From NCBI GenBank assembly GCA_002049455.2, contig KV918770.1, forward strand, positions 124,001-188,000: a stretch of 64,000 nucleotides of DNA. Reading direction: 5' to 3'. The DNA comes from Porphyra umbilicalis (Eukaryota > Rhodophyta > Bangiophyceae > Bangiales > Bangiaceae). Numbering within the stretch: the stretch's first letter is position 1; the number at the start of each line of letters is the position of its first letter. Shown piece after piece: positions 6,795 to 60,595 of this stretch. The notes beneath the pieces were generated by a model. It was not told where the DNA came from, did no database searches, and saw only the letters and a program-made list of their open reading frames with translations. A program made the translations under genes and the position numbers.

Positions 6795-6809
6795 GCGCCG
6801 TTGGCCACC

Positions 6810-6840
6810 GAGTTGCCAACGGAGCCTCCGTTGGCAACTC
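6810..6840. repeat. Perfect 13-bp hairpin
   Basis: GAGTTGCCAACGG at 6810-6822 is followed after 5 nt by its exact reverse complement at 6828-6840. It is flanked by further related inverted pieces (CGTTGGCC and GGCCAACG) between about 6799 and 6860, so the whole region folds back. It may be the tip of a decayed foldback element or a transcript hairpin. No gene adjoins it. Confidence 0.6.
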
Positions 6841-7179
6841 GTTGGCCCTGGGGCCAACGGGTTCTGTGCTCTGATTGGTCCATCGCGGCTGCACGGGGTT
6901 AAATGAGTGACATGTGGCGGTTCATATTGTCCTCAGATTGCCCAATTTATCGTATTTTTGTTTCGACAGCCACCCACGAATGGAATATGGTACCTCTCGG
7001 AACTGGACGGCCGCGTGCCAGCTCGGCCCAAGGGTCCCGATCGTTAGAGCCTGTCACGTATCAATCATGCGGTGGCAAGTACTCGAACGTTGCGTCAGGC
7101 TTGTCAGACGCGCAACGCGCTCCCACTGACACTGGAAAAACAAGAGGATCGGCGCTTATGCCCGCGTGGCGGCCGTGGC

Positions 7180-9824: not shown

Positions 9825-10409
9825 CATGCTGTTTTCTCTCACAAAAGCTCGTCGCGTCCCTTTACCTTACGGCCACTTACTAGCCATAAGACTGGAAAAA
9901 CGGGGTTAGAACTGGGATATCGCCCCCTCCCTGCGGCGCGGAGGCCCCCCCATCAGCGCGTCGGGGGCAGAGCCCTCGAGGCGGACGGGGCAGAGACGTG
10001 ATGCGGCCACGTCATTCAGCAGCGCCGCCGTGAGGGTGAGGGGGGCGGGGGGCGCTCTCGAGCATAGCCGGCGGGCTGTTCCCGACTCATTGCGGTGGCT
10101 GCCGCCGTAGCGGCAGCCGCATGGACCGAAAGTGGCAAGCCCCCCGCGTGTGGCCAAACGGAGGCACTCTCGCGGGACAGAGTGATCCCGCCTACCGCAG
10201 GCGGCCACCACCCGGCGCTGTCCTCAGAGCGGAGGCGTCTGTTGCCCACCTGTCGGTGCCTGCGGGCTGAACTCCGGCCACCGGGACGCTGCTGTTGCGG
10301 ACGGGGTAACTGCGGGAAAGGGTCGCGGGGGTGGGATGGCAGGGTCGAGAGGGATGTGAGCTCTGTATTGGCTGACAACCGATTGGACGTCAGAGCAAAC
10401 CTAGCAATG
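9825..10409. mobile_element. ~590 bp dispersed repeat, copy 1 (MITE-like)
   Basis: This is near-identical by eye, in the same orientation, to 28219-28811. Its right end keeps GCAAACCTAGCAATG (10395-10409), the exact reverse complement of the left end of copy 2 (CATTGCTAGGTTTGC). The ancestral unit therefore had terminal inverted repeats of about 15 bp and was a short non-autonomous DNA transposon. The left end of this copy is eroded. No coding capacity is credible; the antisense frame open in both copies simply reflects their identity. Confidence 0.7.
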
Positions 10410-15500: not shown

Positions 15501-15855
15501 ATGGTGCTTCGTGACTATCGGTCAACTTTCCGGTAAAGGTGTGTTGGTCAACTGTCCTCCTATTGTGACAGCCTCTGATACGTCCTTGATTGTGGATTGT
15601 GTGGTCCATCAGGGACCGTTCTGTTGAACAGGGGAGCATGCGTCAAACTTCCTCCCCGTTGGTATTATGCGAGGGGCAGCGGCAGGTCCGATGTCCTGTA
15701 TGGACCCGCCGATGCTCAGGGAGGGGTGAGGGCAGCAACGATATGCTGCCCAGTCCCGATGGCATTCTGGAAGTGGGGGGGCCGGCTGCTCAATCCGCGG
15801 CTGCACCCGTCGCGCTCCGTCCGCCAGCGACACGGAGGAGCACCGCGCTCGCGAC
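12547..15855. other. Spacer
   Basis: No gene is identified with confidence. An Ala-rich frame at 13145-13540 (+) contains MATTSGSSDASDSERLRAAT and has gene-like composition, but no domain, splice site or neighbour supports it. Small duplications are present, for example CATCAAGCGGC twice near 13722-13755 and CGAACGTT twice near 15143-15165. Nothing else is seen. Confidence 0.4.
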
Positions 15856-15966
15856 CACGGTAACCGCCGTGCTCGCGACCGCCGTGCTCGCGACCGCCGT
15901 GTTTGCGACCGCCGTGCTCGCGACCGCCGTGCTCACGACCGCCGTACTCGCAACCGCCGTGCTCCC
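15856..15966. repeat. 15-bp minisatellite
   Basis: About seven tandem copies of a 15-bp unit, consensus GCTCGCGACCGCCGT, with single-base variants. It sits just 50 bp upstream of the Harbinger transposase start, in its probable 5' leader or promoter. The unit length is a multiple of three and reads as a five-residue LATAV repeat in one + frame, but no gene is otherwise supported there. Confidence 0.8.
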
Positions 15967-16011
15967 GCCGCCCTGTTCCCATCGTGTGCGCAAGCACAGT
16001 ACTCCAGCTCC

Positions 16012-17850
16012 ATGGACGGCAGTTCCATGGGGGGTGGTTTCATGTCACTTGGCGGATGGGAGGGGGAGGAGGGTGGCAACGACGACGCGGCGACATCAGC
16101 CGTCGTCGCAGCGCATGTTGCTACGCTCCTGGAGTGGCGCCGTCGCGCTATGGCGGCGCGACGTGTGCAGCGCCCGCGATACCGCGGCTTCACGCCTGGC
16201 CGGGCGGTCAACAGGCCCCGCAATTCCGAGCTTGGTCTGCACAGTATTCTGCGGGACTACTTCGGCGTGGATGGCCTTCCCCCAGTTTACGGCCTGCGGG
16301 AGTTTGAGCGTCGTTTTCGCGTGCCTATGCCGGTTTTCCTGCGCATCTACCACGCTATTAAGGACCGCCCGTTCTGGGTACAGAGCGTGGACGGGACAGG
16401 GCGGCCGCAAGCGCATCCTCTGCAAAAGCTGGTTGCAGCGTTCCGGGTGCTCGGGTATGAGGAGTCGTGCGATCGCGCGGACGAGTACGTGCGGCTCTCC
16501 AGTTCAACGATATCTCGGGCGGTGACGCTCTTCACAGAGTTCATCGTGGACGAGTTCAGCCCCCGGTACCTGCGACCGCCCACCACGGCGGAAATCGGTA
16601 ACATCCTCGCCCGCAACGCTGAGCGTGGTTTTCGAGGGTGTCTCGGGTCGCGTGACTGTTCTCACTGGCAGTGGTCCGCTTGCCCCAAGGGGCGTGCGGG
16701 CACCTACCAGTGCCGCGATGGCCAGCGGTTTATCGTGATTGAGGCTATCTGTGACGAGGACACTTGGATATACCACATTTTTTCTGGGTGTCCCGGCAGC
16801 CTGAATGATATTAACGTCCTGTACCAATCTCCGTTGTATATGGATGTGATCACCGGCAAATGGCCCCCGCGTGACTGTCCGTTCACTGTGAATGGCAATA
16901 CTCGCACCTTGCTATATTACCTAGTGGTCGGCATTTATCCTCGCTTCGCGTTTTTCGTCGCCACTTATCCGAACCCCCAAACTCGAGAGCAACGGACTTT
17001 CAACCGCCTGCACGAGGCGCTACGCAAGGACTTGGAGCGCCTCTTTGGGATCCTGACGGCACGCTTCCACATTATGCTGAACCCGTGCCGGTACTGGTCG
17101 GTACCTCGAATGGTGCTGACCACGCAAACCGTTGCAATTTTGCATAACATGGTTGTCGAGACCCGCCGCGACGGGTTTGTGTCGCGGTCGCGCTCGTCGG
17201 TGCACGGGGGGGGTGGCGGCGGGACTGTCGGGACGGTGGCCGCCGGAGCGGCGGAGGCGGATGGGGCGGACGGGGAGGGCGGCACCGCCGATGCGGGCGG
17301 CGCCGCGGGCGCGGGCGCCGCCGGTGGCGGTGGTGAAGCGGCGGGTGGTGGTGGGGCGGGCGGCGCCGACGCGGGCGCGGGCGCCGCCGGTGGCGGTGGT
17401 GGAGCGGCGGGCGCTGGTGGGGCGGGCGGCGGCGACGCTGGCGCGGGCGCCGCCGGTGGCGGTGGTGGAGCGTTGGGCGCTGGTAAGGCGGGCGGCGCCG
17501 ACGCGGGCGCGATCGCCGCCTGTGCCGGCCCTGGAGCGGCGGCTGGTGCTGGGGCCGGCGGCGCCGACGCAGGTGCGGGCACAGCCGGTGGCGGCACTGA
17601 AGCGGGGGGCGCTGGCAGTACGGGGGCCGTCGGGGTTGCTGCGGGTGCGCTAGGGGATCTACAGCAGACCCCCGGCGTTCCGCCCTCTCATGTCGGGGGC
17701 GCTCCAGTGGCGCCAATTAGCGAGTTTGTGCGCATCCTCATGGCCACCGGCGAGGCAAAGTCCGCCGCAGAGCACAAGGCGCTTCGCGACGACCTGTGTG
17801 CGCATGTTTTTGCGCAGCGAGGTGAGCTGCTGGAGCCGTATGTTGATTGA
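16012..17850 (+). CDS. PIF/Harbinger transposase (DDE_Tnp_4 / plant transposon protein type)
   Basis: An uninterrupted 612-aa frame. Residues ~60-390 follow the plant-type PIF/Harbinger transposase: HTH-like region ~95-190, SRDCSHWQW (first Asp, residue 215), GSLNDINVLYQSPL (second Asp, 266), GNTRTLLYY and GIYPRFA, and RKDLERLFG (Glu, 342). Such enzymes act in the nucleus, cut at short TIRs and usually leave 3-bp duplications, helped by a Myb-like partner. From memory, relatives have an Asp in 'DGIYP' where this one has Val (residue 306), so activity is uncertain. Residues ~395-560 are a Gly/Ala low-complexity insert not usual for the family, followed by a normal-looking helical tail (EFVRILMATGEAKS). 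The start is the first ATG, just after the 15-bp minisatellite. No introns are needed. A partner gene lies at 20910-23225 on the other strand. The element's TIRs were not found by eye. Confidence 0.88.
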   Translation: MDGSSMGGGFMSLGGWEGEEGGNDDAATSAVVAAHVATLLEWRRRAMAARRVQRPRYRGFTPGRAVNRPRNSELGLHSILRDYFGVDGLPPVYGLREFERRFRVPMPVFLRIYHAIKDRPFWVQSVDGTGRPQAHPLQKLVAAFRVLGYEESCDRADEYVRLSSSTISRAVTLFTEFIVDEFSPRYLRPPTTAEIGNILARNAERGFRGCLGSRDCSHWQWSACPKGRAGTYQCRDGQRFIVIEAICDEDTWIYHIFSGCPGSLNDINVLYQSPLYMDVITGKWPPRDCPFTVNGNTRTLLYYLVVGIYPRFAFFVATYPNPQTREQRTFNRLHEALRKDLERLFGILTARFHIMLNPCRYWSVPRMVLTTQTVAILHNMVVETRRDGFVSRSRSSVHGGGGGGTVGTVAAGAAEADGADGEGGTADAGGAAGAGAAGGGGEAAGGGGAGGADAGAGAAGGGGGAAGAGGAGGGDAGAGAAGGGGGALGAGKAGGADAGAIAACAGPGAAAGAGAGGADAGAGTAGGGTEAGGAGSTGAVGVAAGALGDLQQTPGVPPSHVGGAPVAPISEFVRILMATGEAKSAAEHKALRDDLCAHVFAQRGELLEPYVD

Positions 17851-18049: not shown

Positions 18050-19320
18050 TTGGGCGGCGGCAGCCGCCGTTCTTGTCGCGCTTGCACGACGGCGGCCGCA
18101 CGAGCAGCCGACCGCCGAAGACGCTTGTGCTACACGGCACCCGCAGCGGCCGCCGCCGAACGTCACTTTGCACGGCGGCCACCGTACTTGTCGTTGCGCT
18201 TCGGCCGCCGCCCTTGGTATTGTTGTGAGGCGGCTGCCTCACCTGCTGTTGTGTCCTGGCGGGGTGCCGGGCGGCACCAGCCACTGGTGTGATTGCACGG
18301 CGGCCGCCGCGCGTCTTGTTGTTGCGCTGCGGCCGCCGTGTCAAAGGGCGCGGCGCGGCGATCGCCGCACATTGGCCGCCGCCGACCCCGTCGCCACGGC
18401 GCGGCAGCCGCCGCACGTGGGCCGGCGCGGTGGCCGCCACACTTGTTGATGCACTGCGGTGGTCACCCTTTGTGTGGTTGCACGGCAGCCGCCGCGCGTC
18501 TTGTTGTTCCGCTGCGGCCGCCGTGTGAACGGGAGCGGCGGGGCGACCGCCGCACGTGTTGTCGCTCAGCGGTGGCCGCCGCACGTGTTGCTGGACCGCA
18601 TCGGCGGCCGCCGACCCCGTCGTCACTGCGCGGCCGCCACCGCACGTGCTCCGGCGCGGCGGCCGCCATACTTGTTGATGCACTGCGGCGGTCGCCCTTG
18701 GTGTGGTTGCACGGCAGCCGCCGCGCGACTTGGTTATCGCTGCGGCCGTCGTGTAAACGGGCGCGGCGGGGCGACAGCCGCACGTGTTGTCGTTCAGCGG
18801 CGGCCGCCGCACGTGTTGCTGGAGCGCATCGGCGGCCGCCAACCCCGTCGTCACGGCGCGGCCGCCGCCGCACGTGGTCCGGCGCGGCGGCCGCCACACT
18901 TGTTGATTCACTGCGCCTCTTGTTGTTGCGCTGCGGCCGCCGTGTAAAAGGGCGCGGCGCGGCGACCGCCGCACGTGTTGTTGCTCAGCGGCGGCCGCCG
19001 CACGTGTTGTCGTGGAGCAGCGCGACGGCCGCCACACTTGTTGCTGCTCTGCGGCGGCCGCCGCCGTTGTTGTCACTTCGCGGCCGCCGCCGCACGAGGT
19101 CCGGCGCGGCGGCCGTTACACTTGTTGATGCGCTACGGCGGTCGCCCTAGGTGTGGTTGCACGGCGGCCGCCGCGCGACTTGGTCATCGCTGCGGCCGCC
19201 GTGTAAACGGGCGCGGCGGGGCGACCGCCGCACGTGTTGTCGCTCAGCGGCGGCCGCCGCACGCGTTGCTGCTGCGTGTTGCTGCAGCGCATCACGACGG
19301 CCGCCGCGCTTGTTAAGGCT
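18050..19320. repeat. ~228-bp GC-rich tandem array (about 5 units)
   Basis: The landmark TTGATGCACTGCGG recurs at about 18445, 18674, 18902 (variant) and 19124 (two units on), a spacing of ~225-229 bp. Each unit carries several GCGGCCGC octamers and the palindrome CACGTG inside GCCGCACGTGTTG. Units differ by scattered substitutions and small length changes. Frames are open on both strands, but their products are Arg/Pro/Ala filler; since 228 is a multiple of three, a decayed repeat protein is possible. The array follows the Harbinger transposase directly. Confidence 0.75.
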
Positions 19321-23764: not shown

Positions 23765-24962
23765 CTATCGGACGGCAGGTTGCGCCCACTGCTGCCGGGG
23801 CGGCCGCTTGCCAAAGAGGGACAGCGCGGTGGTGCTGACAGCCGCAGCCCCGACTGCAGTGACAGAGGGTGCCTCTACTGGAGTTCTCGCCCCGGTGGCC
23901 TCGGGCTTTTCCGCCGCTCGTCGGGTGCCGGCGGGTTGTCCCCCGGCCACCTGGGCGGGCTTAGCGGTCGCTCCTGCCCTGGTTGCTGGCCCACCGACAG
24001 GCCGCCCGCCGCCCACCGACCCGGGCTTGGAGGCGGCTCGTTGAGCGGCGCGCCGCCCGTCCACCTTGGTGGGCTTGGCTGCCGACCGTTGGGCGGCCCG
24101 CCGCCCGTCCACCTTCGCGGGCTTGGCTGCCGACCGTTGGGCGGCCCGCCGCCCGTCCACCTCGGCGGGCTTGGATGCCGACCGTTGGGCGGCGCACCGC
24201 CCGTCCACCTCGGTGGGCTCGGCTGCCGACGGTTGGGCGGCGCGCCGCCGGTCCACCTCTGCGGGCTTGGCTGCCGACCGTTGGGCGGCGCGCCGCCCGT
24301 CCACCTCGGTGGGCTCGGCTGCCGACGGTCGAGCGGCGCGCCGCCCGTCCACCTCTGCGGGCTTGGCTGCCGCCCGTTGGGCGGCGCGCCGCCCGTCCAC
24401 CGCGGCGGGCTTGGCTGACGACGGTCGGTCGGCGCGCCGCCCGTCCACCGCGGTAGGCTTGGCTGCCGACGGTTGGGCGGCGCGCCGCCCGTCCACCTCG
24501 GCGGGCTTGGCCGCCGACCGTTGGGCGGCGCGCCGCTCGTCCACCGCGGCGGGCTTGGCTGACGACGGTCGGTCTGCGCGCCGCCCGTCCACCGCGGCGG
24601 GCTTGGCTGCCGACGGTCGGGCGGCGTGCCGCCTGTCCACCGCGGCGGGCTCAGATGACGACGGTCGGGCGGCGCGCCGCCCGTCCACCGCGGCGGCGTC
24701 CACGGCCGTCGTTCTTGTGGTAGCGCGACGCCCGTCCACGGCGGCGGAGGTGGTCGACGGGTTGGTGGCAGACGACCACTTTGCAGATCTGGACGCGGGG
24801 GGGGGGCGGGCAGCAGCAGTCGCACTGGCAGTGCGCCAAGTGCGAAGCGACCGCGTCGGTCCAGTCGCGAAGCAGCCGCCGATCTTCGTCGTTCCGCCAC
24901 CGCTGCCGCGTCCGCTGGGCCCTCCGCCGCTTGGTGTCGGGAGGCTTCTTCTTCCAAATCAT
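23765..24962 (-). pseudogene. Uncharacterised basic protein with 16-aa repeats (one frameshift at poly-C)
   Basis: From ATG 24962 the frame opens MIWKKKPPDTKRRRAQRTRQ and continues WRNDEDRRLLRDWTDAVASH and HCQCDCCC (possible metal-binding cysteines). A run of ten C on this strand (24806-24797) separates it from another frame that carries about 14 copies of a 16-residue repeat, consensus KPAEVDGRRAAQRSAA, and ends at 23765 in GKRPPRQQWAQPAVR. Both sides look coding while the other frames look like filler, so the poly-C run marks a frameshift or an assembly slip. The repeat is basic and Ala/Pro-rich, like linker-histone tails in composition only. The N-terminal W..DEDRRLL..W pattern faintly recalls SANT domains. 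It has the same strand as, and lies just upstream of, the Harbinger ORF1, so it may be an extra gene of that element or an independent gene. Confidence 0.4.
24035..24735. repeat. 48-bp minisatellite (about 14 units)
   Basis: The unit contains GCGCGCCGCCCGTCCACCTC and GCGGGCTTGGCTGCCGACC and recurs every 48 bp; CCACC starts are spaced 48 apart near 24061, 24109 and 24157. Variants are single-base. It encodes the 16-aa repeats of the overlapping minus-strand frame, so the array probably expanded inside a coding sequence. Confidence 0.85.
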
Positions 24963-26689
24963 TGCGTCGGCAGCCGCCCCGTAATAGGAGAGGACCAACC
25001 ACCGGGGGCGACCACCGGCCACGCGAGCCACGGGCGGTAGCCAGCCGCAGCAGCCGGGGACGGAAGCCGCCCACGCAACCAGCGCGCGGCAGCCGCCCAC
25101 ACCGCCGATGGGCGGCAGGCGCCCACACCACCGACCGCCAGCCGCTGCAGCCGGTGACGGCAGCCGCCCACACAAGCAGCGCGCGGCCGCCGCCCACACC
25201 GCCGACGGGCGGCAGCCGCACACACAACCGGTGAGCGGCCGCCGTTCACACAACCAGCGCGCGGCGGCCGCCCAAACCGCCGACGGGCGGCAGCCGTCCA
25301 CACCACCGGCGCGCGGCCGCCGCCCACTGCACCAAACCGCCGGCGGGCGGACGGAAAGCGCGCGCGCGCCAAGCGCGTCAACGTGTGCCCCCCTCTGGCA
25401 GCGCAGGCGGCCGCCAAGCACGCACTGGCGCGGCAGCCGCCCCCGCCGTGGCCGCACTTGCCGCACCCGCCGCCGCCGCCGCCGCCGCCGCCGCCCGCCG
25501 GAAGCCGCCCACGAAAGGAGGGCCCGGGAGAGGCAAACCGACGTGGGAGACGGAACGGGGTGGTGGGGGGGTATTGCCCCAGAAGGGGCCCTCAAAGCAA
25601 GTCAAAAAGCGCGCGCAAGCTCGAGCCCAAACCCGCCGTGCACCGGCCGCTGTCTAGGCCACGTCCGCCGCAAAAACATGGCTCGCAAAAACAGCGCGCG
25701 CACGACGGGCAGTCGCGTCAGCGACGATGGCGCTGGCGGGGGTGTGACGATACCGCGCAAGAGAGGCGGGTGCTGGGCGGCACGCCGTGGGGGGCAAGAA
25801 GCACGCTTCCAACACGACGGCACGCCCTGCGAGCGTATGCCCCACCACCGACGCCACCGCCACATCCACACCCCGCCCTCAGGGACACGCACCAGGGGTG
25901 GCCCGCGCCCGCGCGGGGCCCAAGACTGAACGCGTCTCCTCGAGCCCCGCCACCACACGCCTGCGCTGGGCCTCGAGGCAGCCGCCGCCACGCTTCTCAG
26001 CACGAGGCCGACGATGCGTGGCGTGACGGCTGCCACGCGCGAGCCCGCCCGAAGAGCTGACAACCCCAGGCCGAGGCCGACCGACCGAGAACATGTGCGT
26101 GGACTCCCCCCCACCACCGAAAAAGAGATACACTCCACCTCTTATTGCTTGAGGCCAAATAGCTGCGGCCGACGCGGATAACTAATGGAAGGTGCGAGCT
26201 AGAGCGAGGCGCCAGAAGCGGGTCACGGGCACAACGCAGAGAGAGGGCTCCAACCGTCGCAGACATGAGCCAATCAAATGGAAGTCAGCTGGATGCACGG
26301 GTTCTGGAGAAATTGTCCTGCTGATGGTGGTTCGCCTCAACCAATGAAAAGTGGCTGTACTGCTGACCATGCGGAAGCGGCAGCCAGGCATCTTGGCCCA
26401 GGTCCCTCAGTGCGAACGGCCAGCAGCGCACGACGCGGCCGCGGTGGGGGGAAGTGTTGGACTCAGACAGCCTGGTCGGGGTGTCATAAGCAGGGCCTGC
26501 GGATCGTTCCTAAAAAGATCCGCGGCGCGCGCATGACGCGAGGCGATCGCGTGGCAAGCCGCAACGCGGTGGCGTTCGCGGCCGCCGTGTCTCGGTCGCG
26601 TCGTCAGCACGACGCGTGCCCCACACGAGACTCGATAGAGACCAGCCCTTCCCACACACAGTCGGACACGTAGGGGCACGACCATGCTC
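24963..26689. other. GC-rich spacer with short degenerate repeats
   Basis: From 25.0 to 25.4 kb short units such as CCGCCGACGGGCGGCAGCCG recur irregularly, and long frames are open on both strands from composition alone. From 25.6 to 26.7 kb the sequence is mixed. No frame resembles a known protein. Confidence 0.45.
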
Positions 26690-27450
26690 GCAGCTGATGG
26701 TGGTGGGCCCTGCCCGCAAGGAGGTGTGACGGCAGGGCACTACCACGCTCGCAGCTGTTTGTGGTGGGCCCTGCCCGGGAGGGGGTGTGGCGGGATGGCA
26801 CCACCACGCTCGCAGCTGTTGGTGGTGGGCCCTGCCGGGAGGGGGTGTGGCGGGGGGGCACGACCACGCTCGCAGCTGTTGGTGGTGGGCCCTGCTGGGG
26901 AGGGGGTGTGGCGGGATGGCACCAACACGCTCCCAGCTGTTGGTGGTGGGCCCTGCTGGGGAGAGGGTGTGGCGGGGGGGCACCACCACGCTGCCAGATT
27001 TTGATGGTGGTGGGCCCTGCTGGGGAGGGGGTGTGGCGGGGGGGCACCACCACGCTAGCAGCTGTTGGTGGTGGGCCCTGCTGGGGAGGGGGTGTGGCGG
27101 GATGGCACCAACACGCTCCCAGCTGTTGGTGGTGGGCCCTGCTTGGGAGGGGGTGTGGCGGGGGGGCACCACCACGCTGCCAAATGTTGGTCGTGGGCCC
27201 TGCTGGGGAGGAGGTGTGGCGGGGGGGCACCACCACGCTCGCAGCTGTTGGTGGTGAGCCCTGCTGGGGAGGGGGTGTGGCCGGATGGCACCAACACGCT
27301 CCGTGCTGTTGGTGGTGGGCCCTGCTGTTGAGAAGGTGTGTTGGGGGGGCACCACCACGCTGCCAGATGTTGGTGGTGGGCCCTGCTGGGGAGGGGGTGT
27401 GGTGGGGGGGCACCACCACGCTCCCAGCTGTTGGTGGTGAGCCCTGCCCG
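26690..27450. repeat. 61-bp minisatellite (about 12 units)
   Basis: The unit carries GGTGGTGGGCCCTGCTGGGG, GGTGTGGCGGG and CACCACCACGCTCGCAGCTG. Starts of GGTGGGCCC at 26702, 26763, 26824, 26884, 26945, 27009, 27070 and 27131 give a period of 60-64, mostly 61 bp. This is not a multiple of three, so unlike several other arrays here it is unlikely to be a coding expansion. The higher-order pattern (units alternating CACCACCACGCT and CACCAACACGCT) suggests duplication of blocks of units. Confidence 0.9.
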
Positions 27451-28218
27451 GGCGATGTGTGGCGGGCGGCCACGAAAAGTCTTGGCGCGCCTGTGCGCTC
27501 GCCACTTTGAGCTGTCCTCCCAGGTGCTTGTCATCCTACAGTCTCGAGCTGTATGTAACAGCTGGTACGGCAGCGCCGCATCACAGAGAGCCACAAACAG
27601 GGATCTCCGGCCGAGACTCGTTGCCCTGGATCTGCCTCCTTTTCTCGATCTCGAGGCCCACGACATTCGTTCTGGGGCGGATCACTCGAATGCCGGTCGA
27701 TCATCTGAGACATCCGTGCCAACGTGCGGCTCCCATGCTCCGTGGTGTGGGCCGGGGGAGAATATGTCTCACTCTTCATTGTGATTCTCAGCGATTTCTC
27801 TCTGGCGAGAGTACCATTGGCTAGGAGAACACCTTCCCCGTGTGCCGTGGCAGCCCGTGGCGCCACCATGTGGCGCTCAATCGACATTTTTAACGACGCT
27901 CTCTCACTTTGTGTCATACATGTGACTCGTGTCTGCATCGTGTCAAACGATCGCTGCCTTTCGTCGGCCTGTCGACCGCAATCTGCAGCGGATCTCGCGG
28001 ATCGCCCCACCTCAGAGGCTCCGAGATTCCGCGGAAAGTTTACTCCAAGGGATTGGGCCACGGACCGCCCACCAACACGAAGGACTATCGATGGAAAAGA
28101 AGCCCGGTACGGAGTAGCTCTATTGCACATATGGCCCATTCCAGGACCATACAATAGGCGGCCCGTGAGGGGGCGCCACGTCCCAAGACCAATCGAGATT
28201 TTAAGGATAGTCCTTTGA
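27451..28218. other. Spacer
   Basis: Frames are open on both strands but none has a domain or gene-like composition. Nothing is seen. Confidence 0.4.
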
Positions 28219-28811
28219 CATTGCTAGGTTTGCTATTTTCTCTCACAAAAGCTCGTCGCGTCCCTTTACCTTACAGCCACTTACTAGCCATAAGACTGGA
28301 AAAATGGGGTTAGAACTGGGATATCGCCCCCTCCCTGCGGCGCGGAGGCCTCCCCATCCGCGCGTCGGGGGCAGAGCCCTCGAGGCGGACGGCGCAGAGA
28401 CGTGATGCGGCCACGTCATTCAGCAGCGCCGCCGTGAGGGTGAGGGGGGCGGGAAGCGCTCTCGAGCATAGCCGGCGGGCTGTTCCCGACTCATTGCGGT
28501 GGCTGCCGCCGTAGCGGCAGCCGCATGGACCGAAAGTGGCAAGCCCCCCGCGTGTGGCCAAACGGAGGCACTCCCGCGGGACAGAGTGATCCCGCCTACC
28601 GCAGGCGGCCACCACCCGGCGCTGTCCTCAGAGCGGAGGCGTCTGTTGCCCACCTGTCGGTGGCTGCGGGTGGAGCTCCGGCCACCGGGACGCTGCTGTT
28701 GCGGACGGGGTAACTGCGGGAAAGGGTCGCGGGGGTGGGATGGCAGGGTCGAGAGGGATGTGAGCTCTGTATTGGCTGCCAACTGATTGTACGTCAAAGC
28801 CAACAGCTACG
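28219..28811. mobile_element. ~590 bp dispersed repeat, copy 2 (MITE-like)
   Basis: Direct repeat of 9825-10409, differing at a small number of positions. Here the left end is intact (CATTGCTAGGTTTGC from 28219), complementary to the intact right end of copy 1, while this copy's right end has drifted (around 28796-28811). Together they define a short DNA element with about 15-bp terminal inverted repeats and no coding capacity. Confidence 0.7.
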
Positions 28812-29674: not shown

Positions 29675-30089
29675 GGCCTTCACTGGCCCCACACGTCGGG
29701 GTGCCAGGCCCGTCGACCAATTTCGCTGTTCCGCCCGTGGCGCGCGTGCCAGGCGTCACACGTCCAGTGTCAATGATCAGAGAGCGGCCCCAGGCGTGTC
29801 GCCCACTTCTGCTGACAGCCAAGTACGAGCAGGACAGAGACCAGTAGATCTCCTTCTCCGCGCCATTTCGAACCGGTGGCAGGTCCATTGCGAAATCATA
29901 GGGAATCGCAGCATCTTTTGACACTATCTTGATCCCTGAACGATGGCCCGACGGTCCAGATCACAGGCCCGTTCTGGGTCGGTCGAGGTCACATGATCAA
30001 ATTTGTGACGATCAGAACGCAGATGTCGACCGGACGCCGGCGTCGTCGATTCGGACCACGTCGCCGCCGCGATCCGCAGCCCCCCCACG
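29675..30089. repeat. Left terminal inverted repeat
   Basis: Reverse complement of 34547-34948. It contains AATTTCGCTGTTCCGCCCGT, TGATCCCTGAACGATGGCCC and AATTTGTGACGATCAGAACG in both arms. A frame starting SKDAAIPYDFAMDLPPVR is open in both arms, but only because the arms are copies of each other. Confidence 0.8.
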
Positions 30090-30491
30090 CCTTGTCAAGA
30101 CCCAGTGTACCGGCTCTTCTGGGTCGCGGCGGAAGCGGCAGCGTCCCATTGGGTTCCCGTTCCAAATACGAGCTACCATTGGTCACTATCAAATTTGTGA
30201 GCGTCAGCTCAAAACATGCCTAAAGCACCGCTCCTTTTCTCGAAACTGCAACGTGGAACAGGTCACTGGCCCCTCCGGTGCCTCGAGAGGGGGGGCTTCC
30301 CTTGCAAGGACCTCTACCTTGGCAAAATCGCCCCCACGGACCCACCCACCAGCACACAATGCGGCGCACCGCACGGACAGGCGCTGCTAGCTCACTCCCA
30401 AAGCATGCTACCACAACACCTGAGCCATAGGTGCATTCCGTCAGCCTCCCCTCCGGCCGGTCCATGACCACAATCAAATCCCTAGCACGCT

Positions 30492-33400
30492 TCAATGAGA
30501 CTGCTTCTGCAGTCGACTCTCATGCGCAATCATGGTATCGGCCGCCCTTGCAAATACCTTCTCTGCCCACAGCTCCCGGTCATGCTCAGCTTTCTTCTGG
30601 GTCTCACTGCGCACGGGAAGCGCGGGCTCGTTGGCGCGCAAGCGCTTATCGCCTGCCTTTGTGGCTGTGTGCGCCCCGTCCTTAGCCGACGCTCGTTTGT
30701 GGGCCACCCTGCCGACTACAGCAGGGCTCGCGTCACGAGCCAGCGCCATGGCACGCAAAAAGAAATCAGTGGACGCGAGGTCCGACCCACCGGGGTAAAG
30801 CCGTGCGGTTTGCGTAAACCGACCGTGCCATGCTTCAAGCCCCTGCACACCGTACAGCCCGATGCTCCCAAACTATTTCAGAAAGTCCGGGGCGTGGGCG
30901 AGTGGGATGTGCAGCTTAGGGGACACGTTGATCCACGCGAATGAGCCCTTCAGGCCGACCACAAAGTCCGTCACATTGGCCCAAAAAGCAGTAGTCTCGT
31001 CGTTCGTCGCAATCGTAGCACGGTTCAGGACCTTTCGGACCCTGTTCCACCTCTTCCATGCGTCTTTGTACGTCTGGAGGTACTGCTTTGCGTGCTCGAC
31101 GCGCCCCGCCTCCACCTCGACGAGTTGCTGCTCCAGCGCAGCGCAAACAGCATCGCTGTGCTCCCCGATCGCGTGGCAATCACGTCTGATAAAGAGGCCA
31201 CCGTGATACGGTACGGGATGCACGCGAGCCTCCGTGTACAGCAACTCCGCCAGTTCGTAGGCAAAGTCGGACGCAGCGCTTCGGTCGCGGCACCTAATGA
31301 CTACCTCCACGCCCAGTCGAAGCAACCGCAAGTTGATCCCAAGTGTGATGTGGAGAGGAATTGGCACAATTTGGCGCGGATGAGGGGAGAGCAGTGGGCG
31401 CCGAGTCACTGAAAAATAATCTTCCTGCGCGGAGTTGGCCGGTGGCGTGGACCAATTGGCGTACTGATCAGCATCTCGCAGAGGCCAAAGCCCCAACACG
31501 TCTTGCAGCGTCCTGTAATTTGCGTCAAGGGTTGCATGGGCCTTAGTCGGCGACCTCGTGCTCTTGCACTGGTTGCACGGCATGGTCGCATTGGGTCCGT
31601 TGTGCCCCGCCACCGTGCACTGCGCCTCATAGTCGCTGGACAGCACTAACCGTGCTGGTCGTCGCTCCACACGCACAACCAGCCCATGACGGAGGAGCTC
31701 TTCGATTTTGGGCGTGTGAAAGGCCATCATGGCCGCGACCTGGGGGTTCTTGTCCTCGTCACACGGGCAGACCGCTGCGAGGATTGTGTTGCAAGGGTTG
31801 TTGGGCCGCTCCTGGTTCATGATGGTGACCACAATTTTCTCAGACGCCGGCTCGCCCCCCTTGTCCAAGCCGACGGTAATGCGAACGTCGGGGACGGTGG
31901 GGGGGGGGGGCGGCCACCCCAAGCCCCGGGGTCAAAGCCGATAGGCACCGTGGCGTCCTCTGCGCGAAGGGGCTTGCCGTCCGGCCCGTTCACAAAACGC
32001 TCAACGAATTTCTCATTGTCACATAGGAAAGTTACCTGCTCCTGTACTGCCAGTGCCGCATCCGTCAGGTGAGCACCCGTGTGTGTCACGACAACACTCT
32101 TAGCTGCTGACGCCGCCATTTCCCGTTTAGCAGCATGCAGCACGTGGCGGCTGGCCAGCCCACTCTTGCGACCACCGAGCGTCCGCCTGATCTTGCTAAA
32201 GGTGGACCAGCTGCGGCCTAGCTCAAAGACCAAGCCGACCTGCTCCCGCACTGATACTGCATTCTCCTTCCGCAGCCCGCCCGCAGAGCCCGAAAATGCG
32301 TCACCCGCCACAGACCTGGCGCCAGCAGTAACTAGCTGTCCCCGCACGGCTGTTTTGCGCTTATTTCGTTGGCTCTTTCTCACCGAAACCTTCTGAGGCG
32401 AGACCTCACGCAAGTACACCTGAGACCGCCCGTTTCGGTGCTGCAGGTGGATGCGGTCCTTGTTGCCCTTCAGGAGAATGGCAGACGCAATCCGCATCAG
32501 GATGGGCTCATTAGGCGATCGCTCGACCCCGTCCCAGATGAAGTAATCAAGGAAGGCCTGACAGCTTGGAACGTCGTCGGCCTGAACCACTGGTGAGGTG
32601 AGTGGGGGGGCAGCATCAACGTCAAGGGCCGGGGTGGGGTGAAGGTGGCGGGCAGTCGTTTGCATCTGCATCTTCAGGTGGCGTGCTCGTGCGTCAGCCT
32701 CAGAGGCTGCACGCAGCGCCGCCTGCTCCCCCTGTCGTGCGCGATTGGCCTCGAGCCACGCCGAGGTGCACGACGTGCAGAGGCAGTCCTTCACGAGGTT
32801 GACTGCGGGCATCGCAACAGATAGAGGTGGGGGATGAGTAGCATTCAACATACATAGGGGGGGGGTGAAAAGGGGTGCCGTGGGTGCCGACAGTGGCAGA
32901 CGCGCTCGCTTGGAGGGAGGAGGGAACGCATCGTGGGGTAGGGAGCAGTCCTTACCACTGGATGCCTCTTGGTCCACAGCCACGCGCTTTGCTGCTCTGC
33001 GTAGCCTTGATGTACAGGCGTCACAGCTGCCCCGTCTACATCGGGAGATAGAAAGCTGGGCCACGCAGTGGCGAGGGGTTCCAGGTGGATCTGTCAACGC
33101 CCCTTCTCGCCACTCAGCCATGTTTGTGCCCTCCTTGAGAAAAAGGCCATTGCATGTGGCGCACTGGTAGGCCCAGACTGGCTCTTCGAATGCCACCATG
33201 ATATCCTCCGCCGTTGCCCTGGACAAGAAAAGAGGGCATGAGGGCAAACCGGACGGGGGGGAGAGAACTGGAGAGCGGGACACACGCATGCAGTAGTTAG
33301 CCCTGCACACGCTTTGCACAAAATTGACGTCTCGTGGCCTCGAGGGGAGTGAATGCGGACAAGAATGCTGGCAGTGCCGAACCACCTGCACCAAGTTCCC

Positions 33401-33624
33401 ACGCTGAGCCGTAGAGACCAAACTTACGTCCGGTTGCCATCCATATCGACCACTTTGTGAACCTCCGCGGGACAACGGCTGCAAGGATGCGGCGTAAGAG
33501 GGTGGCTCCGCTCGGTCGGCGCAAGACTTGAAACCAGTCGCTCCAAGCCACGGTCGGCGACGAGACAGACGAGCGATTTTGCCGACATCCAAAATTGGGA
33601 CTGGTGGTTCCCCACCCCCCTCAT
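30492..33624 (-). pseudogene. DDE transposase-like protein of an uncharacterised, RAG/Transib-reminiscent family
   Basis: It starts at ATG 33624 (MRGVGNHQSQFW). Exon 1 ends at the GTAAGT donor 33427 and joins exon 2 in frame after a CTTTTCTTGTCCAG acceptor. Cys clusters follow (YQCATC, CRRGSCDAC, CLCTSC), then the core: VGLDKGGEPASEK (first Asp), VLSSDYEAQC (second Asp), CNQCKS (CxxC), IPLHITLGINL, LHIPLAHAPDFL, and GVQGLEAWHGRF (Glu). The D, D, CxxC, LHxxLG, E order matches transposon-derived proteins I recall from cnidarians and nematodes, and loosely RAG1/Transib. It is broken twice: a frame change in a C12 run (31910-31899), and TAG at 30875-30873 just before the catalytic Glu block. It lies inside the ~400-bp TIRs. 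The fold call is fairly safe; the superfamily name is not. Confidence 0.6.
33219..33427 (-). other. GT-AG intron in the DDE transposase gene
   Basis: Donor GTAAGTTTGG at 33427 and acceptor TTTTCTTGTCCAG ending at 33219, 209 bp. The flanking codons join in phase (..VDMDGNR-T-ATAEDIMVAF..), while the intron itself is open only in an unrelated frame. Confidence 0.7.
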
Positions 33625-33769
33625 TCAGGTTTCAGCGGGGGGGTCGCATTTGCGTCGCGACGCAAATCGCGATGCACCACTCACAATTTGGCACGTTGCT
33701 CCGTGATTTTCAATGAGTTGCTGTCATGCTCAGACCCAGAAGAGCCACCTTGACTAGGCGTGCCCCCAC

Positions 33770-34545
33770 CCCCTTCACAACCGCCGACGTCGCCGTCGCC
33801 GCGGCTGCGACCGAGTTGTCCCCCCCACCCCCCCCCCTGCCGCCCCACGCTCCCCCCCGCCCCCCCCCCCCCCCTCCTGTTCCAATCACTTCTGTTTCTC
33901 GTGTCGTCTTACATTCGTTTTTCTTGCTTTCTTTTTCGTGGGTCATCTGCCTTGTTCTTCGAGCTCTTCCTTCCTGTCGTAGATAAAAACACACGCCGCT
34001 CCTGTTCTTTTTTGTCTTGGTCATTCTTTTGCGCTGCGGGACTGAGTTTGCGGTCGCTGCAGTTTATTGCACTTCTTTACTGTCGGCATCAGTTCTTCAC
34101 GCCCTTCCACAGCGCGTAAAATGCTGCTTCAAGTCGTGGAGGGAGAAGCCGCCTCGAACTCAGAGTGCACAAACCCACCGCCGTGACCTTTATTCACCCA
34201 TCAGAAAAAAAAAGCACAACGCAAGAGAGCCACCACCGGTGATCAGCACCAACAAGGGAGCGTGACGAGGGCGGCAGTGGTAGAAACGACAAGAAAAAAG
34301 AAAAGCATGTGTTTATCTCAACGACACAGAGGATATGCGCAAAGAACAAGGCAGATGACCCACGAAAAAGAAAGCAAGAAAAACAAATGCAAGACGAGAC
34401 GAGAGACAGAAGTAGTGATTGGAACAGGTGGAAGGGGGGGGGGGCGGGGGGGGGCGTGGGGCTGCAGGGGGGGGGGTGGGGGGGACGCCTCGGTCGCAGC
34501 CGCGGCGACGGCGACGTCGGAGGTGGGGAGGGGGGTGGGGGGGCT
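33770..34545. repeat. Foldback repeat (two ~260-bp inverted arms, ~250-bp centre)
   Basis: The sequence at 33770-34020 is closely matched by the reverse complement of about 34275-34545. Shared landmarks are GCCGACGTCGCCGTCGCCGC, long C runs, TCTTGCTTTCTTTTTCGTGG and CATCTGCCTTGTTCTT. The centre (34020-34270) is unique. The unit sits inside the larger long-TIR element, touching its right arm, so it is either a nested insertion or part of a complex terminus. No coding function is seen. Confidence 0.65.
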
Positions 34546-34546
34546 G

Positions 34547-34948
34547 CGAATCGCGGCGGCGACGTGGTCCGAATCGACGACGCCGGCGTCCGGTCGACAT
34601 CTGCGTTCTGATCGTCACAAATTTGATCATGTGATCTCGACCGACCCAGAACGGGCCTGTGATCTGGACCGTCGGGCCATCGTTCAGGGATCAAGATAGT
34701 GTCAAAAGATGCTGCGATTCCCTATGATTTCGCAATGGACCTGCCACCGGTTCGAAATGGCGCGGAGAAGGAGATCTACTGGTCTCTGACCTGCTCGCAC
34801 TGGGCTGTCAGCCGAAGTGGGCGACACGCCTGGGGCCGCGCTCTGATCATTGACACTAGACGTGTGACGCCTGGCACGCGCGCCACGGGCGGAACAGCGA
34901 AATTGGTCGACGGGCCTGGCACCCCGACGTAGGGGGCTAGTGAAGGCC
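34547..34948. repeat. Right terminal inverted repeat
   Basis: Partner of 29675-30089. Its inner edge abuts a G/C homopolymer-rich stretch belonging to the foldback repeat at 33770-34545. Confidence 0.8.
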
Positions 34949-36981: not shown

Positions 36982-37776
36982 CTATGAGGTGTTACTCTCA
37001 GTCCTCAGAGCGCAAGAGAAAAACTCGGCATCCGATGACTGTTTGTCACTGTCCGCCGGGCCCGCAGTGCGCGCGAACCGGCGCCGCTCCCAGACCTTTT
37101 TCTTGGGCCATCGCACCTCCTCCTCAGAGTCAGAGCGGTCAAAAGGGTGGCGTTTCCAGTTGGGCACTCGCCGCACCCCAGCACCCAGCCGACGCGGCAC
37201 CGAGGGCAGTGGCGGCAAGCTGAGGACTGCCAGCTTGTGCCTCCATCCACCTCCGTCATCCTCGTCACCCCCGCCTCCGCCGCCACCGCCACCGCCTGCC
37301 CCACCGCGCGGCGGCGCATCGACGGGGGCACCCCCCCCGCCGCCACCGCCACCGCCTGATTTACCGCGCGGCGGCGCATCGACGGGGGCACCCCTCCTGC
37401 CGCCACCGCCACCGCTTGCCCCACCGCCTGCCCCACCGCCCGGCGGCGCATGGGCGGGGGCACCCCACCCGCCGCCACCGCCACTACCTGTCCCACCGCC
37501 CGGCGGCGCATCGGCGGGGGCACAACCACCGACTGCGCCACCGCAACCATTACGCCGGCACTGCCATGTGCCGGCGCGTGGCCGCCGCTGCTGCTCGCTC
37601 CACCACCATCTCCGTCCTTTTCATCCCCATCCCCGTCGAGGTCCACGACCTCCTTCCGCGCCGCCACCCAGTTGCGCACCATCTGTCTAAGACTTGCGTG
37701 CTCGCTCTCAGTAACGTCCTCGTCGTCGGCGCGGGCATTCACGTTGACGCCCACGTGGACAGCAGGGGGCTCTCCA
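36982..37776 (-). CDS. Probable 3' coding part of the unknown multi-exon gene, with 20-aa repeats
   Basis: The frame read from about 37776 gives DGEPPAVHVGVNVNARADDE and MVRNWVAARKEVVDLDGDGD, preceded by a plausible acceptor (CCCACTCTCTTTAAG). Four 20-residue repeats follow (consensus VAVAAGGVPPSMRRRAVGQA). A coding-like tail continues in another frame (VPNWKRHPFDRSDSEEEVRW, then WERRRFARTAGPADSDKQSS) and ends near 36982. The change of frame near 37215 may be a missed intron or a frameshift. Acidic and basic stretches suggest a nuclear protein. It follows the exons at 37890-40709 on the same strand and may be the end of the same gene. No family is recognised. Confidence 0.35.
37300..37530. 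repeat. 60-bp repeat (4 units)
   Basis: GCGGCGCATCGACGGGGGCA and variants recur at about 37311, 37371, 37443 and 37503 (one spacing carries an extra 12 bp). It encodes the 20-aa repeats of the overlapping minus-strand frame. Confidence 0.8.
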
Positions 37777-52039: not shown

Positions 52040-52377
52040 CGTGACGCACCATGTGCCGGTCGCCAGCTGCCCAGCTCGCAACGAGGTGCACCGGAAACGC
52101 GGTCGCAGCGGCGTCGTGAGCGGCCCCACACGCGGTGGCCGCGGGCACCGCGACAGCGCATGAGCCAGCTCGCCGCAAGCGGCTGTGCGACGCATCGGCG
52201 GCGCGCGCCGCCACAGTCCGAGGCGCTCTGCCCGCAAAGCTGGCAAGGAGGTCCACAAGTGGCGCGCCCGTGGCCATTCTCTGGGCGGCCGCTTAGGCCG
52301 TGGCCGGTGGAAGAGAGTCGCTCGGGCAACCCGTCCGTGGCCGCGCGCGGCCACTGGGCGGCCGTCGCTTTTCATCG

Positions 52378-52794
52378 TGTTGAAGCGCAGTAGGGATAGA
52401 GGTTTAGAGACCACGGTGAACTGGTTGAGTGTCTCGAGGTTGTGTGTGTGTGTGCGAACGTGCTTTATTGGTTGTCCTAAGATTCCCCGCCTCTCCGAAC
52501 CGAGAGCACCTCTCAAATAGTCCCCACCGGCCCAAGTGCTCCCCCCTCTCGCGCCCACACCGATGCCCACGCCCTCGAACTAAATCGAATCACTCATCAA
52601 ATCAAAATCCACTCAAGCAAAGCGAAGGTCAAATCCAAAACACGCCAAAAGTAACGCCCCAAGAAGACCCAACACAAATGTGTGCAACTTGACCACGTCC
52701 CGCAAATGAACCATCTGCGATACCATAGGGGTTCTCGACCATCATCCATCCGCGAACCGCCAGTGGAGTCGGCGGCGAGCATCACAGTCCAACA
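52378..52794 (-). repeat. Copia 3' LTR
   Basis: 417 bp, TGTTGAAGCGCAG..CAGTCCAACA as read on +. It pairs with 56951-57368 and with the solo LTR at 59687-60104. It contains a short TG run and a conserved central block with CTCTCCGAACCGAGAGCACC. Confidence 0.93.
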
Positions 52795-55700
52795 CTCCTC
52801 CTTGCTTGTTGCCGCGGCGGTTCTTGTACTCAGCAAAGCCCCAAGGCCTCGACATGCCTGTCGTGTTTGGTCTTGCCGTGCTCGTTCGTCATCGGGTCCG
52901 CCATCATGTCGTCAGTTGCACAATGCTCCAGTGTTACCTTGTCCGACGTGATGACCTCGCGCATGAAGTGGCAGCGAATGTCGATGTGCTTGGTGCGCTT
53001 GTGCTCGACGGGTTTCTTGGAGAAGTCAATGCACCCGCTGTTGTCGACCTTGATGTTTATCGGCCCGCCCGAGATCGCTGTCCGCAGCCTTTGAGATGCC
53101 ACGCTTTGCACGAGCTTGTTGAGCCAAACAGCTTCCTTGCTGCTTTCACATAGAGCCATGTACTCGGATTCCATCGTCGACAGCGCCACCGTCTTCTGCA
53201 ACTAAGAACCCCAACTGACGGTTGCTCCGCCGAGGATCAATGTGGAGCCCGTCGTACAATGTTGCGTCTCGTGGTCACCGGCCCAGTCGGCATCACTAAA
53301 GCCTTGTAAAACACAGGAAGAGTTCTTGTCGAAATCCAGCCCCTTCTCCATCAAACCCTTGACATACCGTAGAACGCGCTTGATCGCCGCCCAATGCTCC
53401 TTGCCGTAGCACGAGACAAACCGACTCAGCTTCCCTATGGCGAAGGCGAGGTCAGGACGTGTCCCGACCATCATGTACATTAGGCTGCCGACGGCTTCGC
53501 GGTAGGGCAGCGCGTCGTCGCTCTCGTCGGCCTTGACCAGCTGCAGGCCCACCTCCAGCTGCGTTCTGATCGGGTTGCACTCCGCCATCCCGAACTTCTC
53601 CAGCACTTGCCCCGCGTACTTGCCCTCCGCCAGCTTGAGGGTGCCCAACGCCTTGTCACGCCTAATATTTAGCCCGAGGATGACCTTCGCCTCGCCCAGG
53701 TCCTTCATCTCAAAACGCTTGTGCAAAGCATCCTTAATCTCGTAGATCGCCGCCAGGCTTGATGCCACCAACAGGGTATCGTCGACGTACACCAGGACGA
53801 TGATGATTTCGCCGTCATGCATAAGAAGGTAGAGGCATGCATCCGGGTCAATGTTGTCAAACCCCTGCGACTTGAGGAAGTCGTCGAGCTTGGCGTACAA
53901 CATCTTGGGGGCGTGCTTCAGCCCATACAGCGCTTGAAAGAGACGCCACACCTTGTCAGGATACGTCGGATTGACATAGCCGTCTGGCTGCTCCATGGAG
54001 ACCTCCTTGTCAAGGTCTCCGTTGAGGAAGGCCGTCTTGACGTCCATCTGATGTAGCTTCCACCCGCTCGCCGCAGTCATCGCCAGGATGCATAGGATGG
54101 TGGTGACTTTGGCCGCCGGTGCGAACGTCTCGTTGAAGTCGAGCCCATTGATCTGCCGGTTCCCCATGAAGCACAGGCGTGCCCTGTGCCGCGTCTTGTT
54201 GTTCTCGTTCTTGTGAACCTCGTTCTTGATCTTATACGCCCACTTGCCCTTCAGCACGCGTCGGCTGGCCGGGCGATTCGTCAAGCGCCAAGTCTTGTTC
54301 TGGCGGATGGCCTTCATCTCCTCGTCCAAAGCAATCTGCCACTTCGCCGATTCTTGCCCTTGAACGGCTTGCACGTACGTCGTGGGCGCCTTGTGAGCAA
54401 CCACTCTCACCGAGAGCCAGTACTCCACTGGGGGTCGCCGTGCTCTGCCACCGCGACGCAGCGTGTCTTGAGAGCCGCCACATCCTTGATTGTCGTCCGC
54501 GGACGTGTCAGATCCATCGTCTTGCTCGTCATCAGGCCCTACCATACGTATAATGTGAGTAGGTGTTTTTCCAGGTGTAAGTGTCTGCACTGCAGTACCC
54601 GTAGGCAGCAGGGCGCCTGGCACTCACACGCATATCAACAATTGAGTAGGAAGCCGTGAGTATCTTTCAATTCCGGCCAACAGCGGAGTAAGAGCCAAAA
54701 GAACGCGCCATTGGAATGCAATTATGCCATTCCACCTCCGCCAAGCACCAGTTGATCTTTTGACTTGATTTGAATACTACAACAGTTCTAGTTCACGTGG
54801 TTCCTCTGAACCGTTGTGTGCTCGCCAAAGGACGCCCGTTAGAATTCTCACGCGAGCCGTTGACAACGAAGCAAACAGGAGGACACACGTGACGGAACGG
54901 ATCCCACGTGCTCGGGCCTAAAAGGCGCTTGGCGCTGCTAAAGATTGGCAGCCGTTCCAAGTGAAATAATTTCGGAAATGATTCGTACTCGTGTTTTGAA
55001 GGTATATTTCGTATTGATACACTTGAAGTTACACGTGGCCAGCACTCGTACTCGATTGCAACGATTTGTATATACCGTACCCGCAGCTGAAAACGATAAT
55101 TATGACAGGGTCTGCTTGTCATCCTTGACGTCATTGTACGCATCTACGGTTTCGCCGACGCTTGAAGAACGCAAGCCCGTCTCGAATTCGACGTTTTCGT
55201 CTCCGGGAAGCTCCTCTGCAACTTCTGCAACTTCGCTCACGTTCGTCTCGGCAAACAAGACGCTTCGTGCCTTTACGACCTTGCCGTCGTCCAGGATGAC
55301 CTTGGACGCCTTGCTACCGTCGGCAAAGCCTAAGAAGACGCCCTTTGCCGCCTTGTCGCCAATCTTGCCGTCGATGTGACTCTGGTGCAGCACCACCCAG
55401 CATATCGACCCAAACACCCGCATGTGGCTGACGTTGGGCTGATTTCCGTTGCACAGCTCAAAAGGCGTCTTGCCGATGGGGAGCGCCCGGCTGGTGACGC
55501 GGTTCTTGATGTAGAACGCCGTCTTGATGGCATCCGCCCAAAGATCCTGATCGACGTCCTTGTGTCGCATCATGGTGCGTGCCATCTCCACGAGAACTCG
55601 GTTGAGCCGCTCAGCAACCCCGTTCTGCTGCGGCGTGTCGGGCACCTTGGTCTGGTGCGTCGTGCCGTTCTCAAAGTGGGGAGCCTTGAATGCATTTGAC

Positions 55701-56950: not shown

Positions 56951-57368
56951 TGTTGAAACGCAGTGGGGATAGGGCTTGGGGGACCACGGTGAAGTGGTTG
57001 AGCGGCTTGAGCTTGTGTGTGTGTGTGCGAACGTGAATTGTTGGTTGTCCTAAGGTTCGCCCGCCTCTCCGAACCGAGAGCACCTCTCAAATAGTCCCCA
57101 CCGGCCCAAGTGCTCCCCCCTCTCGCGCCCACACCGACGCCCACGCCCTCGCACTAAATCGAATTACTCACAAAATCAAAAGCCAGTAGAGCAAAGCGAA
57201 CGTCAAATCCAAAGCACGCCAAAAGTAACGCCCCAAGAAGACCCAACACAAATGTGTGCAACTTGACCACGTCTTGCAAATGTACCATCTGCGGTACCAT
57301 AGGGGTTACCGACCATCATCCACCCGCGAACCGCCGGTGAAGTCGGCGACGAGCATCACAGTCCAACA
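56951..57368 (-). repeat. Copia 5' LTR
   Basis: 418 bp, upstream LTR of the minus-oriented element. By eye it is closer to the solo LTR at 59687 than to its own partner, consistent with separate drift since insertion. Confidence 0.93.
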
Positions 57369-57373
57369 CATCG

Positions 57374-60104: not shown

Positions 60105-60595
60105 CTTCCCATGTCACAACCGTCCGAGCCACCTGCAGCACGTGCGGCGCGGCCGCCGGTGGAGGCGGCCGCAGGAATGTCTCCGACGCCTCCGCCACAC
60201 CAGGAGATCCCGACGCCGTCGCCATCAGCAGAGCCGAGCTCAGACGCCCACGAGACGGGGCAAGTGCGACGGACACCGACGGTGCGCACGGACTTCGTCG
60301 GTTCGCTGCTGGCTCAGCTCGCGAGCTCTGCTGCAGCGTCCCCGTCGGCAGCAGACGAAAAGGCGGCCTCGTCCGCGCAATGGCGGCAGCAATGGATTCA
60401 GCAGAACCAACGGCCCCCGCATCCGACGAACGACGATGCCAACGAGGAGGAGGCCGACACGCTCTGCCCCCCGTCGTCGGACGCGTAGTCCGTGGTGCTT
60501 TGGCCTCCCCTGCGGAGGCCTCCAGTGATGTGGATGGCGCGGCGGCCGCAAACGCGGCCGCTGCGTCACCCAACTCCCGGAAAGAATCGGCTTCA

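Follow-up and report, generated by a model that had tools for sequence, protein, structure and literature searches.

RAG1, the enzyme of adaptive immunity that shuffles antibody genes, descends from a transposase, and to our knowledge the nearest relatives of its transposase ancestor have been described mainly in animals. According to Majorek et al. (2014), DUF1280 corresponds to the Chapaev transposases of animals, which were grouped with RAG1 (PMC3985635). Kojima (2025) united Chapaev with Transib in a CMCT clade whose members have C(2)C and H(3-4)H motifs, mostly CA..TG ends and duplications of 2-5 bp; duplications of 7 and 8 bp are given for KDZ members (PMC12730594). The hallmarks listed for Chapaev itself are CAC/GTG termini, target site duplications of 3-4 bp and C(2)C, LH and H(4)H motifs (PMC4079192), while duplications of 5 bp are reported for Transib/RAGL (PMC7204232). 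CNEST, a CMC transposon of a basidiomycete fungus, is described as sister to Chapaev and Mirage (PMC12810828). As to the arrangement of the ends, RAG and some Transibs use 12/23 spacers and ProtoRAG uses 27/31 (PMC8355894, PMC8289069), and ProtoRAG favours its unequal pair of split ends (PMC8289069).

The element described here lies in a stretch of 64,000 nucleotides (the window) from the red alga Porphyra umbilicalis. The whole copy is 3,677 bp long (30086-33762), carries its gene on the minus strand and has boundaries common to copies among loci L009-L028. We consider it likely to be a dead Chapaev-type cut-and-paste transposon (CMC/CMCT), one of a large red-algal population, an assignment made from hallmarks and DUF1280.

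Aligned splice sites predict a short first coding exon beginning with ATG (33428-33444, minus strand), a 209-bp GT..AG intron (33219-33427, minus strand) and a second coding exon (30492-33218, minus strand), which a frameshift and a stop interrupt in the window copy. All 10 copies compared have GT at the aligned donor, and nine have AG at the aligned acceptor, which is altered in L017. The N-terminus carries a Cys cluster, WAYQCxxC ... CRRGSCDAC (33014-33175, minus strand), with the pattern CxxC...C...CxxC. The preliminary description had noted an intron, a Cys-cluster N-terminus and the motif order GLDKGG, SSDYE, CxxC, LHxxLG, QGLEAWH; all of these features were recovered, the intron as a prediction, with the motifs on the minus strand and in that order. 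They comprise GLDKGG (31854-31871), with the proposed first catalytic Asp; SSDYE (31626-31640), with the proposed second; the C(2)C pair in PCNQC (31566-31580); the LH motif PLHITLG (31338-31358); PYHGGLFI (31188-31211), which aligns with RMNGNF of RAG1; the H(4)H pair in HIPLAH (30894-30911); and QGLEAWH (30825-30845), with the proposed catalytic Glu aligning with E962 of RAG1. The corresponding core residues of the sister copy L013 are D413, D490, C509/C512, H584, H731/H736 and E756.

Comparison of nine divergent copies revealed the same order of D, D, CxxC, H(4)H and E in all nine, with identical spacings of 77 residues from D to D, 19 from D to C and 20 from H to E. In the degenerate copy L033, one H of H(4)H was lost. 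The LH motif was more variable: its H was kept in 8/9 copies (Q in L040), LH was literally present in five of the nine, and V or S preceded the H in three. The window copy has LH. These motifs are not a product of chance, because order and spacings are kept in all nine copies and dN/dS is 0.19-0.23 in diverged pairs.

In the window copy, the motifs from GLDKGG to QGLEAWH share one frame, with an in-frame stop (30873-30875, minus strand) before the last of them, and the N-terminal half lies in another frame. The frame shifts at a run of 12 C on the gene strand (31899-31910), where slippage and assembly error are indistinguishable. With a frameshift and one stop, the window copy is a pseudogene and cannot make the enzyme as read. 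Judging from the 869-codon frames of sister copies and the predicted first exon, an intact transposase would comprise about 860 residues.

We searched the genome that holds the window (83.8 Mb, 665 contigs). A red-algal host agrees with its phycobilisome linker domains, for which there were 12 matches, four on contig C665, probably the plastid, and eight on other contigs. Light-harvesting proteins gave 10 matches, and the one compared further came closest to red-algal (7y5e) and cryptophyte (ACPI, CAC) entries. A DNA search of the whole genome gave 48 matches including the window copy; two further loci matched the whole query at 95% and one its second half at 96%, the other matches being more distant or partial. 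The preliminary description had proposed looking for intact relatives in algal genomes, and the protein search of this same genome, in which the best 51 of 779 candidates were scored, identified at least 22 other loci with uninterrupted stop-to-stop frames of at least 869 codons; the open frames of sister loci span 869-1,024 codons. Four sister copies (L013-L016) are near-identical, with the 869-codon frame unbroken, and five of five near-identical pairs showed 99.3-99.7% nucleotide identity. The family thus has near-identical copies with open frames and was apparently recently mobile in the red alga. Seven shorter derivatives were also observed, 0.7-1.5 kb between ends, each keeping one 2-bp and one 12-bp end of the kinds described below (C2:654760, C17:405786, C18:143992, C183:45267, C299:19312, C328:3231 and C467:37113).

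Between subfamilies, dN/dS was low (0.19-0.23 in 5/5 diverged pairs), a rough value because dS exceeds 1 in four of the five. In five near-identical pairs it ranged from 0.25 to 1.23, and these values neither support nor exclude selection because the changes are very few. A low dN/dS between subfamilies is also what a host gene domesticated from a transposase could display. The many dispersed copies with common ends and duplications, some of them near-identical, argue against such a gene, and the broken state of the window copy contradicts it for that copy, so that we regard domestication as having a negligible probability.

To delimit the transposon, copies were compared together with their flanks, which revealed true ends of the form CAC...GTG bordered by 4-bp target duplications. 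Among 13 two-ended copies, eight had an exact 4-bp duplication, two (L009 and L024) matched at three of the four bases and three (L018, L020 and L028) at two or fewer; in two of the eight exact copies, the window copy and L010, the length is ambiguous within a homopolymer. CAC was found at both ends in 11 of the 13; of the other two, L028 has one altered end and L018 has two. Both ends of L018 are changed to GACCTTTAGTCAAG. A 707-bp inverted repeat with 94.8% identity surrounds this copy (L018:2336-3042 and 6609-7305), and similar sequence was also seen near another copy (L011:4905-5578).

In the window, flank comparison places the left duplication, CCCC within a C run, at 30082-30085 and the right one, also CCCC, at 33763-33766. 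The latter is additionally placed by the opposite arm of a foldback repeat into which the element has inserted. The left arm of this repeat is split by the insertion into an outer part, outside the transposon (29675-30085, plus strand), and an inner part (33763-33996, plus strand), and its right arm is uninterrupted (34305-34948, minus strand); the arms measure about 640 bp and the loop about 310 bp. At the target site the uninterrupted arm has 7 C, which fits 6 + 5 C minus one 4-bp duplication. When the element and one 4-bp duplication were excised in silico, the arms aligned over 644 columns with 93.6% identity. The foldback repeat forms a family of its own, with at least 42 matches (40 scored of 197 candidates), often in back-to-back pairs. 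The inverted repeats at 29675-30091 and 34532-34948, which the preliminary description had taken for terminal inverted repeats of about 400 bp, are thus arms of a separate foldback repeat outside the element; the copy-derived ends at 30086 and 33762, together with the independent foldback family, rule them out as element ends.

The window contains further repetitive sequence. A 706-codon open frame with Plant_tran / DDE_Tnp_4 (15730-17850) is presumably a PIF/Harbinger-type transposase, and an open frame with RVT_2 (53202-54623) is one that we take to be a Copia-type reverse transcriptase. We also noted a 419-bp repeat in three copies of 91-94% identity (52377-52795, 56951-57369 and 59687-60105, the third inverted), a 574-bp direct repeat of 97% identity (9827-10400 and 28231-28804) and overlapping self-matches with the look of tandem arrays (18285-19314, 23989-24747, 26673-27473 and 37270-37548).

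The only Pfam family matched at E <= 0.001 was DUF1280 (PF06918), which 11 of the 12 aligned members matched at E <= 0.1, with a best value of 1.6e-8. Scores exceeded the gathering cut-off of 25 bits in L044 (34.9), L043 (27.0) and many other loci, and the genome as a whole gave 47 matches, the best at 35.3 bits. Fourteen control genomes gave no DUF1280 match, which says little because the family is described from animals. The preliminary description had spoken of a poorly described family and an unnamed group of animal transposon proteins. The group is not unnamed, because the family matched is the one equated in print with animal Chapaev (PMC3985635). The further suggestion, that the group extends well outside animals, holds in that a large population exists in a red alga, with the correction that the group already has a name and is most likely of the Chapaev type. 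The hallmarks found here are CAC/GTG termini, a 4-bp duplication, C(2)C/H(4)H and DUF1280, with LH kept in part; the Cys cluster lies at the N-terminus, where Chapaev carries its Chapa zinc-finger domain.

These elements could instead form a separate CMC/CMCT superfamily, sister to Chapaev and comparable to CNEST, ESTA or Lanisha. Of the 220 positions in the DUF1280 profile, the matches span only about 40-65, and they often fall below the cut-off, as in the window copy (22.9 bits), L013, L021 and L009, and L040 had no match at E <= 1. Fungal CNEST shows that sister lineages of Chapaev and Mirage exist outside animals (PMC12810828), and split unequal ends are not mentioned for Chapaev in the available part of PMC4079192. 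Against this stand most of the Chapaev hallmarks and, as weak evidence since a remote relation is possible, the result that 12 members gave no match at E <= 0.1 to any other CMC Pfam family, Transposase_21 (PF02992) included. We therefore hold a separate superfamily to be somewhat unlikely and retain the Chapaev-type assignment. Two other families were considered and rejected: KDZ by the 4-bp duplications, against 7-8 bp (PMC12730594), and CACTA/EnSpm by 4-bp duplications and CACGC termini, against 2-3 bp and CACTA.

The likeness to RAG1 proposed in the preliminary description is borne out for the predicted fold and the motif anatomy. The structure predicted for a sister copy matched RAG1, amphioxus RAG1L and HzTransib well above other transposases, and in VIA the structural match to these three spans about 370-450 aligned residues. 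The VIA list contains no CACTA, Mirage or Chapaev structure, and its output cautions that a common arrangement of helices can give helical models Z-scores of this size. Foldseek TM-scores against RAG1 were only 0.32-0.38 when normalized by the query. Confidence in the model is modest (mean pLDDT 56.5, pTM 0.47, 354/869 residues below 50), and the stretch 748-814, which includes the proposed catalytic Glu, has pLDDT below 50. A single-sequence structure prediction of a piece of the window reached a pLDDT of 32.6 and was set aside. The model suggests a RAG1-type core with an RNase H centre.

Sequence profiles gave a mixed picture. In hhalign, a profile of 11 members was colinear with mouse and human RAG1 over 279 columns at a pairwise E of 4.4e-4, compared with 0.95 for the reversed control and 0.045 or worse for all 40 shuffles, but the probability was 34%. 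Searches of PDB sequences by phmmer and by profile did not return RAG1, hmmsearch of the profile giving none at E <= 10; hmmscan gave no RAG1 match, and BbRAGL and HzTransib, both present in PDB, were not recovered by the profile search either. The match of predicted fold and motif spacing to RAG1, BbRAGL and HzTransib raises the question of whether the element is a Transib/RAG-like transposon proper. Its duplications are 4 bp and not 5 bp (PMC7204232), it has the terminal CAC in common and not the rest of the heptamer, and its profile matches DUF1280 while missing the PDB entries of all three proteins. We consider a Transib proper highly improbable, and continue with a Chapaev-type element whose predicted core resembles RAG1.

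The ends of the element are split and unequal. Two 14-bp blocks, CACGCCTAGTCAAG and GGCTCTTCTGGGTC, are common to both ends; they lie 2 bp apart at the gene-5' end and 12 bp apart at the gene-3' end. In the window, the gene-5' end (minus strand) consists of block 1, CACGCCTAGTCAAG (33749-33762), a 2-bp spacer (33747-33748) and block 2, GGCTCTTCTGGGTC (33733-33746); the gene-3' end (plus strand) consists of block 1, here CACGCCTTGTCAAG (30086-30099), a 12-bp spacer (30100-30111) and block 2, GGCTCTTCTGGGTC (30112-30125). We searched the whole genome for the exact block cores (8 and 11 bases), allowing every spacing between 0 and 30. This returned 53 end matches, 28 with a spacer of 2, 24 with a spacer of 12 and one with 18, so that 52/53 had 2 or 12; the reversed end pattern gave no match in the same search. 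The lone 18-bp spacer is at C67:7684. The window 3' end is absent from the exact matches because it has one mismatch. Convergent ends within 15 kb were 2/12 pairs in 18/18 cases, of which seven lie 0.7-1.5 kb apart and two, more than 12 kb apart, may not be single elements.

This uniform 2/12 pairing is explained by descent alone, all copies coming from one ancestor, and the asymmetry may be functionless: one old insertion or deletion, copied ever since. The 12-bp spacer, conserved at 8/12 positions among five subfamilies, may be no more than a stretch that is read. In the deeper subfamilies L041, L043 and L044 the 2-bp end is still recognizable, and L040 keeps block 1 and not block 2; a search for the 3' (12-bp) ends of L039, L040, L041, L043 and L044 found none, and L042 has a CACGCCTAGTTAG end without block 2 on its 3' side. 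On the other hand, the first 44 nt of either end contained no indel in 10/10 pairs of five subfamilies, against 3-8 gap runs per pair in the adjoining stretch, a weak contrast because 44 nt is about a seventh of the adjoining length and the pairs are interdependent. The two spacers differ by 10 bp, or one helical turn, which recalls the 12/23 signals of RAG, and ProtoRAG performs better when its ends are unequal (PMC8289069). We give a functionless asymmetry even chances. By analogy, the 2/12 arrangement may have a role similar to end pairing in RAG and ProtoRAG. The broader proposal, that unequal ends paired one of each kind were not invented by the RAG lineage and are also used by a red-algal Chapaev-type element, appears to us quite unlikely; if true, the root of the 12/23 rule could be as old as the RAG1/Transib/Chapaev clade, or the arrangement could have arisen more than once within it.

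These features suggest a most likely mechanism. One spliced gene would produce a transposase with an N-terminal Cys cluster followed by a RAG1/Transib-like core, containing a split RNase H centre (D413, D490 and E756 in L013), a C(2)C/H(4)H module and, ahead of the Glu, a helical insertion. The Cys/His modules would bind zinc and the centre would be catalytic. The transposase would recognize the split ends, and the unequal spacing may govern their pairing, so that one end of each kind is brought together. Cutting would occur next to the terminal CAC, probably with hairpin formation on the flanks, which we assume by analogy with RAG/Transib. The freed element would then be joined to the target with a 4-bp stagger, giving the 4-bp duplications.

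What is new here is that a red alga harbours a large population of Chapaev-type elements, apparently mobile in the recent past, and that their ends are split and unequal. In the open-access PubMed Central literature searched, as far as its text was available, no occurrence of Chapaev in red algae was reported; titles on a tree and on microsporidia suggest that Chapaev may already have been published from hosts other than animals. Scans with short exact peptide patterns found no relatives in viral contigs (two scans) or in other genome contigs (one scan), which does not show that relatives are absent because of the kind of pattern used. The red-algal population offers an outgroup for the whole RAG1/Transib/Chapaev clade, and a simple element with a single gene and unequal split ends would allow the origin of the 12/23 rule to be tested. 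Should the asymmetry be functionless, the finding would still place a Chapaev-type element in a host group new to it, a modest result.

Compared with known systems, the algal element shares its clade and CAC..GTG ends with CACTA/EnSpm, but differs in having no Transposase_21 match at E <= 0.1, 4-bp duplications and CACGC instead of CACTA. Like fungal CNEST, compared by description only, it is CMC-type, found outside animals and recently mobile (PMC12810828). With RAG1, ProtoRAG RAG1L and Transib it has in common the predicted fold, the terminal CAC and split unequal ends, and with RAG1 the spacings D-C 19 (D708-C727) and H-E 20 (H942-E962), whereas the D-D spacing is 77 against 108. It differs from RAG/Transib in its duplications (4 bp against 5), its spacers (2/12 against 12/23 or 27/31) and its end heptamer, CACGCCT against CACAGTG in RAG (PMC8289069); no second gene was noticed in the element, a RAG2-like gene being outside the search. 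Animal Chapaev differs in host and in the split ends with 2/12 spacing seen in the algal element, and the algal protein is larger, with open frames of 869-1,024 codons against 556 residues in silkworm Chapaev (PMC4079192). With animal Chapaev the red-algal element shares CAC..GTG termini, 4-bp duplications, a DDE core with C(2)C, H(4)H and mostly LH, the DUF1280 segment and an N-terminal Cys-rich region.
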